This document shows positions 4,616-9,110 of a stretch of 64,000 nt of DNA, in pieces. Both the position numbers and the translations under genes were made by a program. Where the stretch lies: contig OX638325.1 of NCBI GenBank assembly GCA_951812795.1, forward strand, positions 682,001 to 746,000, written 5' to 3'. Origin of the DNA: an uncultured Dehalococcoidia bacterium. GTDB taxonomy: Bacteria; Chloroflexota; Dehalococcoidia; Lucifugimonadales; Lucifugimonadaceae. Below the pieces are notes generated by a model, which was given only the letters and a program-made list of their open reading frames with translations, was not told the DNA's origin and did no database searches. The stretch's first letter is position 1. Each line of letters begins with the position of its first letter.

Positions 4616-4647
4616 TTGGCAGGAGTGTTCTTTCGGGCGTGTAGAAT
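4616..4647 (+). promoter_or_regulatory. Possible sigma-70-type promoter for the rplI-dnaB operon
   Basis: TTGGCA at 4616-4621 and TAGAAT at 4642-4647 resemble -35 and -10 boxes. The spacer is 20 bases, longer than ideal; using TGTAGA at 4640 gives 18. It lies 75 bases before the L9 start in the only sizeable gap upstream of the operon. Confidence 0.3.
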
Positions 4648-4722
4648 CTAGTGAAAGCGCTTGAAAGACGTGCGTAAACCCGAGATTTGCGGTCGCACGA
4701 ACATTGAACTGAGATTCCCCAC

Positions 4723-5499
4723 ATGAAGGTCCTATTCCTTGAAGATGCCCTGCCGACCGCACGAGCCGGTGACATCCGCGACGTAAAGAATGGCTTTGCC
4801 CGCAACTATCTGATACCGCGAGGCGTGGCAGTACTTGCGACGGAGCATCAGCTCCGGCGCGCTGAGAAGCTGCGTGCCGAAGCTGAGGAGCGGCGGTTGC
4901 GTGAACTCAACGAGTGGCGAGACATTGCCAAAGAACTCGCTGAAAACCCGGTCGAGTTAACCGTGAGAACCGGCCCCACGGGTCGTCTATACGGTTCGGT
5001 TACCAGCGCGATGATTGCGGCTCGACTCACCGAACTTACCGGCAGGCAGATCGAACGCAAACGCGTGCGGATGCAAGAACAGATCAGGATGGTTGGTTCA
5101 TACCCGTTGCCGGTTCGTTTCATGGATGAGATTGATGCCACGATTACGTTAAGCGTCATTTCAGACGACATTTTGGAAGGCGAGGAAGAGGAAACGACGA
5201 CCGATCAATACGCCGTCACCGACGAGATATTGGCGAGCGGCGAGATCGACATGCATGGCTGGGAAGAGCCGCAAGCCGTCGATGCGCTCGGCCTAATCGC
5301 CGGGCGGATTTTGGCTCGCAACATTTCGCAATTCAGGATCATTCATGGTAAAGGCGAGGGCACTCTTCGACAGGCGGTTCGCGATCGTTTGAACGCGATG
5401 AAGACTGAAGGCACCGTCATAATCTGGGGTCCGGGTCGAACTGATGGGGATACCGACGCCGACAGCCTAGAAGCTGTCTCTTGGTTCACCGTTAGCTGA
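4723..5499 (+). CDS. rplI: Ribosomal protein bL9 fused to a C-terminal Smr nuclease domain
   Basis: A 258-residue protein, where bL9 is normally about 150. Residues 1-48 are the rRNA-binding L9 N-domain (MKVLFLEDA, then the DVKNGFARNYLIPRGVA signature at 20-36). Residues ~45-75 are the charged linker helix and ~76-147 the C-domain (GRLYGSVTSAMIA). An acidic linker follows (148-170, EGEEEE). Residues ~172-230 are an Smr domain with D176-M-H178-G, the family's D-x-H motif, and the H208-G-K-G-E-G-T-L-R-Q-A-V block. Smr domains of SmrB and MutS2 cut mRNA or act at collided ribosomes, and the key residues are kept. The frame is continuous, so this is a true fusion, not two overlapping genes. It heads the operon with dnaB, the usual rplI neighbour. 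Confidence 0.92.
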   Translation: MKVLFLEDALPTARAGDIRDVKNGFARNYLIPRGVAVLATEHQLRRAEKLRAEAEERRLRELNEWRDIAKELAENPVELTVRTGPTGRLYGSVTSAMIAARLTELTGRQIERKRVRMQEQIRMVGSYPLPVRFMDEIDATITLSVISDDILEGEEEETTTDQYAVTDEILASGEIDMHGWEEPQAVDALGLIAGRILARNISQFRIIHGKGEGTLRQAVRDRLNAMKTEGTVIIWGPGRTDGDTDADSLEAVSWFTVS

Positions 5500-5587: not shown

Positions 5588-5658
5588 GGGTAGGATTCGA
5601 TTCACAGTAGTTGAACCTCGAGAGTCCTCCCAGCAGATTTCCTGAACTAAACAGCCGA

Positions 5659-7050
5659 ATGCAAGAACCGACAACCCTAACCCCGAACGGAAGCCCGCCA
5701 GCAAATCTCGAAGCTGAGACTTCGATAATCGGATCGCTGTTAATCGACGGCGGATCGATCCTCCGGGTGGTCCAAGACCTAAGACCGGAACACTTTTACG
5801 GGGAGCACAATCGGGAGATCTACGCGGCCTGTTGTGAACTGTTCGGCGAATCGACCGGCATCGACCAGGAAACGGTTCGCAACCGTCTGAACTCCAAAGG
5901 CATCCTCGAAGACGTCGGCGGCGACGCATATCTCAGCGCAGCGGTGGCACATACGCCACACGCAGTTCACATCGCCGATTACGGCAAGATAGTGCGAGCG
6001 GCGTTTATGCTTCGCCGGATCGGTGACGTGGGTTTGGGGATCCACGAGATCGGCTCCGACCTTGCCAACATCAAGGATGTCGACACGGCGCTAAGACAAG
6101 CCGAGCAATTGATATTTGAGGTCGGACGCGAGCACGACTCCGCCGACTTTGTACCGATCAGAGATGCACGTTCGATCACCGAGTTTTTTGATCCTCCGGC
6201 ACCCGACAGCATTGACGGTTCGAATCAACCAATCGCAACGGGTTTCCAATCGCTCGATCAAGTGCTCGGTGGTTTTCACCGTTCAGACATGATCGTCCTT
6301 GCGGCTCGGCCTGGTTTCGGAAAATCTACCTTGGCATTGAATGTCGGTCTCAATGCTGCAAAAGATGGTATGACTGTCGGTATTTTCAGTCTTGAGATGG
6401 GTATCGACCAAGTGGCTCATCGAATGGCGGCGGCCCACGCCCACATCAACATCCAGAACATCCGCAACGACCACTTGACGCCGCCGGAACGCGACCGTCT
6501 CAGTGACGCCTACGGTTATCTGAGCGACATGCGCATTTATGTGGACGATGCGGCGTTGCAGACGGCGAGCGGACTTAGTGCCAAGGCGAGACGTCTGAAG
6601 TTGCAAACCGGTTTGGACTTCCTGATCGTCGACTACATGCAGTTGATCAGCGGGTCATCTTCTGGTCGAGAGGCGAATCGAGTGCAGGAAGTGAGTGAGA
6701 TTTCCCGGCATCTCAAAGCGATAGCGCGGGACTTGAACATACCGGTTCTTGCAGTCTCCCAGCTAAACCGCGCCGTCGAACAGCGATCTTCTCACGAGCC
6801 GAAGTTGGCTGACCTACGGGAATCGGGTTCGATCGAACAGGACGCTGACGTGGTGATGTTTATCCACAGGAACGATAAAAACATGTCGGAGGACGAGTGG
6901 AACCGACGTAACCCGACGCAGGTGTTTCCGAGGGGGTTAACGGATATCATCATCGCGAAACATCGTCACGGCCCAACCTCGACAGTCGAGATGTCGGTGC
7001 GTGACGAGTGGGGATTGTTCTCGTCGGTCACTGAACCGGGCATGGATTGA
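5659..7050 (+). CDS. dnaB: Replicative DNA helicase DnaB
   Basis: A hexameric 5'-3' helicase that unwinds DNA at the replication fork. With the ATG at 5659 the protein has 463 residues. An N-terminal primase-interaction domain (PPANLEAETSIIGSLL... RNRL) is followed by the RecA-like ATPase domain with Walker A ARPGFGKST (about residues 215-224), Walker B LDFLIVDYMQL, and the downstream LAVSQLNRAVEQR and DLRESGSIEQDADVVMFIHR motifs, all canonical. An in-frame TTG at 5611 would add 16 residues that do not look like DnaB. It follows rplI, as in many bacteria, and precedes two genes for its own loading machinery. Confidence 0.97.
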   Translation: MQEPTTLTPNGSPPANLEAETSIIGSLLIDGGSILRVVQDLRPEHFYGEHNREIYAACCELFGESTGIDQETVRNRLNSKGILEDVGGDAYLSAAVAHTPHAVHIADYGKIVRAAFMLRRIGDVGLGIHEIGSDLANIKDVDTALRQAEQLIFEVGREHDSADFVPIRDARSITEFFDPPAPDSIDGSNQPIATGFQSLDQVLGGFHRSDMIVLAARPGFGKSTLALNVGLNAAKDGMTVGIFSLEMGIDQVAHRMAAAHAHINIQNIRNDHLTPPERDRLSDAYGYLSDMRIYVDDAALQTASGLSAKARRLKLQTGLDFLIVDYMQLISGSSSGREANRVQEVSEISRHLKAIARDLNIPVLAVSQLNRAVEQRSSHEPKLADLRESGSIEQDADVVMFIHRNDKNMSEDEWNRRNPTQVFPRGLTDIIIAKHRHGPTSTVEMSVRDEWGLFSSVTEPGMD

Positions 7051-7060
7051 AGGTCGGACG

Positions 7061-7795
7061 ATGACCATCCGACCGATCAATGGATTTCCATTGTCTGACG
7101 ACTATGCCGGGACGCGGGTTCCGAATGCGGTGTTGGGGCGGGTTCTTACAAGCATCGACGACGCGGATGTCATCAAGCTAGTACTGCGTGCGGTCTGGCT
7201 GCTGGAACGGCAGCGCGGATATCCGAGATACATCGCGGTCGAAGAACTCCAAAGAGACCGGGTGTTGTCGAACGTATTCGTTAACACTGTGGCGCAGGAA
7301 CGCGCGCTCGATACCGTCATCGAATATGGCGTGCTTGCTAAGGTAGTGATCAACGGCAATGTGTGTTTGATGCTCAACACCGAGTCGGCCCAGCGCGCGG
7401 CGATGGACGGGCCCATTGCATCTGCGGTTCTCGGGACGACGAACGCTGATGACGATTGGGACGCACCGCCGGCATCATCGATGCCATCCGATGCGTTTCG
7501 AGCGTACGAGGACAATATCGGCTTGCTATCGCCGATGATTCGTGAGAGCATCCTCGCGGCACTGGAAGATTTCACCGATGACGACATCACCCGCGCCATT
7601 AGAATCGCCGTTGAGAACGAGAGCCGAAGCTGGTCATTCGTCGCCGGCGTTTTGAGGCGCTGGTCAAGAGAAGGCATACCCGATGAGCGAACAGACGGAA
7701 AAACCGGAGGAGCAGACGACCGACGCGTTCCGGAGGCTGAGCTCCGAAAGTACTTGGAGGAGCAACGGAAACGGAGTCGCGCACGCGCCCAATAA
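7061..7795 (+). CDS. DnaD-like primosome / replication initiation protein
   Basis: A 244-residue protein starting ATG 10 bases after the dnaB stop. The C-terminal half (residues ~140-200) carries the DnaD/DnaB_2 domain: AYEDNIGLLSPMIRESI, then a helix ending in SWSFVAGVLRRW, which matches the family pattern E-x-N-I-G-x-(L) ... W-x-Y/F-(I/V)-x-x-(I/V)-L-x-x-W. The N-terminal part (VPNAVLGRVLTSIDDADVIKLVLRAVWLLERQ) would be the winged-helix region. In Firmicutes DnaD brings the helicase loader to DNA; here the neighbours are the helicase and a loader, so the same role is inferred. The last 113 bases overlap the start of the next gene in another frame. Confidence 0.82.
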   Translation: MTIRPINGFPLSDDYAGTRVPNAVLGRVLTSIDDADVIKLVLRAVWLLERQRGYPRYIAVEELQRDRVLSNVFVNTVAQERALDTVIEYGVLAKVVINGNVCLMLNTESAQRAAMDGPIASAVLGTTNADDDWDAPPASSMPSDAFRAYEDNIGLLSPMIRESILAALEDFTDDDITRAIRIAVENESRSWSFVAGVLRRWSREGIPDERTDGKTGGADDRRVPEAELRKYLEEQRKRSRARAQ

Positions 7796-9110
7796 CGCGT
7801 CCGCAAACCGTTCCGAAATCGCGCCGGACTGCGATCGGTGCAACGACTCGCTATGGGTTTTGGCCGGGGGTGAGAACGGGGGCAAGCTGACCGTAGTGCC
7901 TTGCAGCTGTCAGTCTGTGCGGGAGACTTCGCGATCTCAACTTAAGACCTATTCGCAACTTGGACACCTTGAGCGGATGACGTTTGAGGCCGTCATTCCT
8001 GAAGGTCGCAAAGGCCGTGTCGACGAGAATCTATTCAAAGCCGCGACTGAGACGGCCAAGGAATTCGCCGCGGACCCGGCAGGCTGGTTGGTGTTGGAAG
8101 GTTCGGCAGGATCGGGCAAAACCCATCTCGCCGCCTCTATCGTCAGTGCCTTAATCGACCGCGGCTCACCGGCAAAGTATGTTTCCGCGCTCGACATCCC
8201 GGATTTGGTGCGCAACGAGCGTTTCGAAGACACTGATGGTGCGGAAGGTGGCACGTTTAGTTCCTTGTTGGATGCGCCGGTTTTGGTTGTCGACGATCTC
8301 GGAGCCCAACAGGCCAATAATTGGATCGACTCGAAGGTCGATCAGTTGTTGACGCATCGGTTCAATGGACGTTTGCCGACGGTCGTCGTTCTCGCCAAAC
8401 CGATATCTGAGATGTCTGAACGCATCGCGCTCAAATTGGATGATCCCGGTTTATCGAATGTCGCGCAATTGACGGGAGGCGACACGTCTCGCGACGGACG
8501 GCGCATCAACATCCCGAAGACGATGTTGGACCGTATGGCATTCGAGACGTTCGACCCCGACGGAGCCCCAGCATCGAAGTCTGACGAACGCTCCTCCTTG
8601 GCGATGGCGTTGGCCGCGGCTAAGAGTTTCGCGGAGTCGCCCGAAAAGTGGCTGTATCTACACGGTCCAACAGGCGTCGGAAAGACACACATAGCGGTCG
8701 CGATCGCCAAAGTTCAATCTGAAAAAGGTGGATCGATCACCTTTTGGTCCGTTCCTGACCTTTTGGACAACCTAAGGCACACATACTCGACACCAAACGA
8801 ATCGTCGTTTTACTCGTTATTCGAATCGGTTCGAAACTGTGAATTGCTAATACTGGACGACTTCGGTGCCCAGCAGATGACCGATTGGGCATTGGAGAAG
8901 CTGTACCAGATCGTCAGTCATCGCCATGATCGGCTGTTGCCAACGGTTATTACGAGCCAGTACATCATTTGGGAAGGCGCTGACAACAGCAACTGGAACC
9001 GGGTGCGTGGCAAACACCAGTGGGAATCAATACGATCGCGCCTCAGCGATTCGCGCGTCGTTACTGAACGCTTGATGGCGGCGCCTGATTACCGCAATCG
9101 CGGGGCATAG
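7683..9110 (+). CDS. Helicase loader with two tandem DnaC/DnaI-type AAA+ modules
   Basis: A 475-residue protein, about twice the size of DnaI/DnaC. A putative zinc-binding knuckle C50-x2-C53 ... C74-x-C76, as in DnaI, opens it. Module 1 has Walker A GSAGSGKT (140-147) and Walker B LVVDDLGAQQ (201-210). Module 2 has GPTGVGKT (328-335) and LILDDFGAQQ (389-398). Module 2 keeps the sensor-like TVITSQ (421-426) and an Arg pair in IRSRLSD (450-456). Module 1 has TVVVLAKP and IALKLDD at those places, so its finger arginines look lost. The ATG at 7683 has an AGAAGG nine bases upstream and lies inside the DnaD-like gene. It presumably loads DnaB; fusion of an active and a degenerate module is inferred. 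Confidence 0.85.
   Translation: MSEQTEKPEEQTTDAFRRLSSESTWRSNGNGVAHAPNNASANRSEIAPDCDRCNDSLWVLAGGENGGKLTVVPCSCQSVRETSRSQLKTYSQLGHLERMTFEAVIPEGRKGRVDENLFKAATETAKEFAADPAGWLVLEGSAGSGKTHLAASIVSALIDRGSPAKYVSALDIPDLVRNERFEDTDGAEGGTFSSLLDAPVLVVDDLGAQQANNWIDSKVDQLLTHRFNGRLPTVVVLAKPISEMSERIALKLDDPGLSNVAQLTGGDTSRDGRRINIPKTMLDRMAFETFDPDGAPASKSDERSSLAMALAAAKSFAESPEKWLYLHGPTGVGKTHIAVAIAKVQSEKGGSITFWSVPDLLDNLRHTYSTPNESSFYSLFESVRNCELLILDDFGAQQMTDWALEKLYQIVSHRHDRLLPTVITSQYIIWEGADNSNWNRVRGKHQWESIRSRLSDSRVVTERLMAAPDYRNRGA

Follow-up and report, generated by a model that had tools for sequence, protein, structure and literature searches.

The known collision factors (SmrB, MutS2, KOW-SMR and yeast Cue2) must find collided ribosomes. 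In published structures, the Smr domains of SmrB and MutS2 sit at the mRNA between collided ribosomes, in a composite site where Smr contacts uS7/uS11 of the stalled ribosome and adjoins uS3 of the collided one (PMC10897456). E. coli SmrB is a nuclease, whereas B. subtilis MutS2 has DLR, does not cleave mRNA, and uses its DLR and HGxG motifs for binding; the histidine of DxH has repeatedly been lost where cutting is unneeded (PMC10897456). MutS2 Smr domains have also been reported to nick DNA (PMC1564403). In E. coli disomes, the C-terminal domain of bL9 extends from the leading ribosome to the 30S of the trailing one, where K83, K89 and F91 grip 16S h5/h15, and bL9 itself stabilizes disomes (PMC10897467). 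A published survey argues that trans-translation and the cleavage of mRNA become more important to cells without RqcH (PMC11633108). Here, a gene is described that joins a complete bL9 to an Smr domain, and it is compared with these systems.

Architecture of the gene

The window (the whole 64,000-nucleotide stretch of contig OX638325.1 that was analyzed) carries the following features, all on the + strand.

4723-5499 (+): bL9-Smr fusion gene, the genome's sole rplI (open reading frame, Pfam, NCBIfam, genus-wide search)
4723-4857 (+): bL9 N-terminal 23S rRNA-binding domain, residues 1-45 (Pfam PF01281, Ribosomal_L9_N, 50.9 bits vs. cut-off 20.7, E = 1.1e-13)
4918-5160 (+): bL9 C-terminal domain, residues 66-146 (Pfam PF03948, Ribosomal_L9_C, 67.8 bits vs. 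cut-off 23.2, E = 1.2e-18)
4966-4992 (+): R82, R88 and Y90, the bL9 disome-contact positions (alignment with E. coli rplI; role from PMC10897467)
5164-5238 (+): acidic linker, residues 148-172 (alignment, dN/dS)
5239-5496 (+): Smr domain, residues 173-258 (Pfam PF01713, E = 1e-8; AlphaFold2 models; Foldseek)
5248-5256 (+): D176-M177-H178, DxH catalytic-type motif (alignment with E. coli SmrB D99-L-H101)
5344-5361 (+): H208-G-K-G-E-G213, HGxGxG motif (alignments)
5416-5496 (+): genus-specific C-terminal 27 residues (dN/dS 0.013; alignments)
5611-7050 (+): dnaB, replicative helicase, downstream of the fusion gene (Pfam DnaB; synteny)

The gene is a single open frame running from ATG at 4723 to TGA at 5497-5499 (258 codons plus stop). 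Complete bL9 occupies residues 1-147 and Smr residues 173-258, with an acidic linker of 25 residues between them. The preliminary description, made from the sequence, had proposed a continuous 258-residue frame of this composition, which was borne out by the frame itself and by three Pfam domains above cut-off; D-x-H at 176-178 and H-G-K-G at 208-211 were found exactly where it had placed them, and its Smr assignment held in the Pfam search (PF01713, 35.7 bits vs. cut-off 25.7, residues 175-225). In NCBIfam, the protein matched the bL9 equivalog TIGR00158 (102.6 bits vs. cut-off 58.6, E = 2.6e-29), and the Smr end of the MutS2 profile matched residues 161-227 (E = 9e-9). Pfam and NCBIfam returned bL9 and Smr only, with no ATPase, clamp or KOW domain. 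The N-terminal uS2-binding hook is also absent, the Smr domain being preceded by bL9 and the acidic linker. The Pfam Smr match stops at residue 225, position 52 of the 77 of the profile. A full-length Smr domain would include the C-terminal GGxGVT segment; in the alignments the fusion lacks this ending, and its last 27 residues are genus-specific sequence instead, with two strands predicted there.

dnaB is the usual neighbor of rplI, and its position downstream is conserved in related genera (synteny, L116-L119). Further along the window, at 7683-9107 (+), lies a gene for a 475-residue protein with two tandem IstB/DnaC-like ATPase stretches, downstream of dnaB and of a gene with a DnaB_2 domain (DnaD-like), with which it overlaps as the frames are listed. 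This protein is possibly a duplicated and fused helicase loader, and related genomes also encode a protein of about this size after dnaB.

Contact residues, motifs and predicted fold

In the alignment with E. coli rplI, the disome-contact residues K83, K89 and F91 correspond to R82, R88 and Y90 of the fusion, so that their character is conserved. The reach of the bL9 C-domain towards the next ribosome, mentioned in the preliminary description, agrees with published structures (PMC10897467). In the Smr part, D176 and H178 of DxH align with D99 and H101 of E. coli SmrB, and HGKG with SmrB H131-G-H-G. D176, H178 and HGxGxG are invariant in 7/7 species. The residue after DxH is glycine in four species, serine in one and alanine in two, which leaves room for a non-catalytic role of the Smr part.

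AlphaFold2 models were built from few sequences and reached pLDDT 69 and 67, the latter for the Smr part (six sequences). After residue 173, the predicted secondary structure is beta-alpha-beta-alpha-beta-beta. The Smr model was compared with known structures using Foldseek, and the best match was the Smr domain of Thermus MutS2 (2zqe, target-normalized TM 0.80); the best E-value (1.6e-3) is modest, for a query model of moderate confidence. Best matches included 2zqe and 4och, and the top five were all Smr proteins or MutS2. Thermus and Deinococcus MutS2 came first, then E. coli YdaL and disome-bound B. subtilis MutS2; E. coli SmrB and human N4BP2 ranked lower. Judged by profile score and predicted fold, the C-terminal part of the fusion is a member of the Smr family.

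Distribution and selection

A scan of 84,980 species genomes returned five further records of the full-length fusion protein. It was found in 7/7 available species of the genus (88-99% protein identity) and is the only bL9 in all seven genomes by whole-protein search; no second, normal bL9 copy was detected in the genome, and the remaining whole-protein matches in the genus were MutS2 Smr ends. The genus belongs to the uncultured marine Chloroflexota, and one carrier, SAR202 bin127, originates from the sponge Aplysina aerophoba (PMC5649159); the other fusion-bearing records are MAGs titled Chloroflexi or Dehalococcoidia bacteria. An Smr profile search of 76 family genomes found no fusion in the 69 outside the genus, a whole-protein search of 393 class genomes found none outside the genus, and there was none among the matches listed when the fusion Smr profile was run against 250 genomes of the order and 400 of the phylum. 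Intermediate-length candidates turned out to be incomplete MutS2, a repeat protein, or an ordinary bL9 followed by a stop. The preliminary description would have fallen had no related genome shown a long rplI; the genus does (7/7 species), and none was seen beyond it in the genomes sampled. No description of such a fusion was found in the literature searched, a search that covered few subscription journals. The fusion is a new architecture among Smr-domain ribosome factors, so far confined to one genus.

Across the seven species, dN/dS was 0.035 for bL9, 0.051 for the linker, 0.039 for Smr and 0.013 for the last 27 residues; these are simple pairwise counts and only approximate, because synonymous divergence is high, but none comes anywhere near 1. 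Purifying selection acts on the Smr part as strongly as on bL9. A sequencing or frame error, raised earlier as a possible source of the joined frame, was ruled out by the same full-length frame in seven species and by this strong purifying selection. No other part of the gene is as conserved as the last 27 residues, which are nearly invariant genus-wide, more so than bL9 itself, and which from their conservation may form a new contact surface. The linker evolves fastest, with a near-constant length (one 1-codon insertion in seven species). An in-frame TTG near the Smr domain was considered as an internal start that would release free Smr; L013 has CTA in its place, and this lack of conservation makes separate translation from within the gene unlikely.

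Smr relatives and ribosome rescue in the family

In other genera of the family, bL9 ends in tails of varied length that are mostly acidic and probably disordered, and the fusion could plausibly have started from such a tail. Two Smr genes are present in most of the family's large genomes, one for MutS2 (approximately 830 residues, DxR) and one for a free Smr protein (approximately 130 residues, DLHG). In the family alignments, D-x-R was present in 15/15 MutS2 rows and D-L-H-G in 17/17 free Smr rows, and both kinds were matched in 19/19 genomes of genus g5. The fusion genus has a separate DxR MutS2 frame (826-831 residues) in 6/7 genomes, with none found in one incomplete genome; the family-type free Smr was missing from all seven by Smr profile search. 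An extra, unrelated small Smr protein (MSTREIDLHGYTW...) is present in one of the seven fusion species only (L092, about 4622-5097, +). Genus g8 (one genome), whose bL9 is nearest to that of the fusion by identity, has MutS2 only, with neither free Smr nor fusion, which indicates that the free protein can be lost where no fusion exists. The free Smr may have been lost before the fusion arose; the bL9 tree neither supports nor contradicts a sister-genus position for g8.

In genera g2 and g3 (e.g., L088, L089 and L097; small genomes), the free DxH Smr is the only kind seen and MutS2 is missing, so that the loss runs opposite to that in the fusion genus. Elsewhere in the order, MutS2 of L107, L108 and L121 has DLH in place of the usual DLR and is possibly competent for cutting, and L112 (genome G540, frame from 560, +) is a 258-residue frame with a DLHG Smr and an N-terminal run of GYDR/GYNR-type repeats.

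In trees built on approximately 85 columns, the fusion Smr grouped with the MutS2-type, with support of 93/94 in the wider set. Its branch is very long and adjoins two MutS2 with DLH. An alternative grouping with free Smr proteins was not rejected (p-AU = 0.37, and 0.23 in the wider set). On these trees, the origin of the fusion Smr leans to the MutS2-type.

The genome has tmRNA, with the tag GEREVALAAA. No RqcH (NFACT) match exceeded the cut-off in 7 genomes of the genus or in 76 of the family; among control genomes, this search was positive in 11/14. A DxH Smr beside tmRNA, with no RqcH detected, is what the argument of the published survey predicts (PMC11633108).

Proposed function and alternatives

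The favored reading, given an even chance, is that the fusion acts as a ribosome-tethered mRNA endonuclease gated by collisions. It draws on the domain scores, the fusion as sole bL9 in 7/7 species, selection on the Smr part, the invariant motifs aligned with SmrB, the fold match to Smr domains of MutS2 and SmrB, the R/R/Y contact residues, the family's division of DxH and DxR between free Smr and MutS2, and tmRNA with no RqcH detected. The fuller statement, that each ribosome carrying this bL9 would bear its own mRNA endonuclease, inactive until the bL9 arm contacts a trailing ribosome, is put at slightly under even. The bL9 part would be incorporated in the 50S like any bL9, as its intact domains and its status as sole bL9 suggest. 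On collision, the bL9 C-domain of the leading ribosome would extend onto the trailing 30S, as in E. coli, and would carry the linked Smr towards the inter-ribosome mRNA, a distance that the 25-residue linker is presumed to reach. Smr positioned by the collision would then cut the mRNA for tmRNA rescue, and a composite site needing both ribosomes is the simplest idea for how single ribosomes would be spared. The fusion would in this way replace the free DxH Smr protein, and the DxR-type MutS2 would be left as a probable non-cutting factor in the fusion genus. The preliminary description had named Smr proteins as acting at collided ribosomes; this stands for SmrB as a nuclease and for the position of Smr at the inter-ribosome mRNA, but a nuclease role does not extend to B. 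subtilis MutS2, which has DLR and is non-cleaving (PMC10897456).

The collision-nuclease reading is weakened because the glycine after DxH varies and the GGxGVT ending is replaced, and because the sequence leans to the MutS2-type, which does not cleave in B. subtilis. These observations favor the main rival, a non-cutting sensor or clamp, in which Smr would keep its binding to mRNA and the 30S interface without cutting, and would serve as a second clamp or a sensor that stabilizes collided ribosomes; it might do so by offering MutS2 a platform or by slowing the trailing ribosome. The g8 genome, lacking both free Smr and fusion, and the extra Smr gene of one species also count against the favored reading. 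There is precedent for each half, since DLR/HGxG of B. subtilis MutS2 bind without cleavage (PMC10897456) and bL9 alone stabilizes disomes (PMC10897467). However, the aspartate and histidine of the catalytic motif are invariant in 7/7 species while MutS2 of the same genomes has DxR, and proteins that need not cut have repeatedly lost the histidine of DxH (PMC10897456); a non-cutting role is considered rather unlikely. Selection on the Smr part leaves next to no credence for a neutral or accidental fusion, of assembly or of evolution, in which the added domain has no role: confinement to one genus would fit it, but seven separate species-level assemblies, dN/dS of 0.039 and invariant motifs contradict it.

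The linker, acidic and the fastest-evolving part, would suit a carrier role in which a protease cuts it and frees Smr at ribosomal stoichiometry, replacing the lost free Smr gene, and the absence of the family-type free Smr from the genus is in agreement. The linker is, however, almost constant in length across seven species, no protease site was identified in it, and the unconserved TTG (CTA in L013) argues against release by internal translation, so this route is held to be improbable. A similarly low probability is given to an activity unrelated to collisions (e.g., rRNA or DNA cleavage, or 50S assembly), for which bL9 would supply 50S localization only. Reported DNA nicking by MutS2 Smr domains (PMC1564403) and a genus-specific, highly conserved domain ending, which could mean another partner, speak for it, whereas both halves of the fusion are separately tied to collided ribosomes in published structures, and a collision role needs fewer assumptions.

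Returning to the collision-gated endonuclease, no detected RqcH together with tmRNA is the setting where mRNA cutting at collisions would matter most. In the fusion genus, nuclease-type (DxH) and non-nuclease-type (DxR) Smr are split between two proteins, with RqcH undetected. A natural fusion to bL9 would also support the stretched state of bL9 itself as the collision signal.

Comparison with known systems

E. coli SmrB resembles the fusion in its DxH and HGxG Smr, in a setting with tmRNA and no detected RqcH, and in the proposed cutting between ribosomes; it differs in being a free protein whose N-terminal hook binds uS2 (PMC10897456), whereas the Smr of the fusion is covalently attached to bL9. 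B. subtilis MutS2 also has a C-terminal Smr on a protein that acts on the ribosome, and both the sequence leaning and the best fold match point towards this type, but it has ATPase, clamp and KOW domains, carries DLR where the fusion has DxH, and acts by splitting ribosomes, with no cleavage. The family's own free DxH Smr proteins (approximately 130 residues, e.g., L079-L087) share DxH and HGxG with the fusion; unlike it, they are unfused and most conserve the GG-G-VT ending. NCBIfam NF011110 (signaling protein/bL9) likewise has bL9 within a longer natural polypeptide, but there bL9 is C-terminal to the signaling protein, while in the fusion bL9 is N-terminal and Smr is added. Bacteroidota KOW-SMR combines a DxH Smr with a domain that presumably brings it to the ribosome (PMC10897456); the KOW domain would bind reversibly, in contrast to bL9, a structural component of the 50S. 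If the collision-nuclease reading is true, a built-in, stoichiometric collision sensor and cutter replaces a recruited factor.
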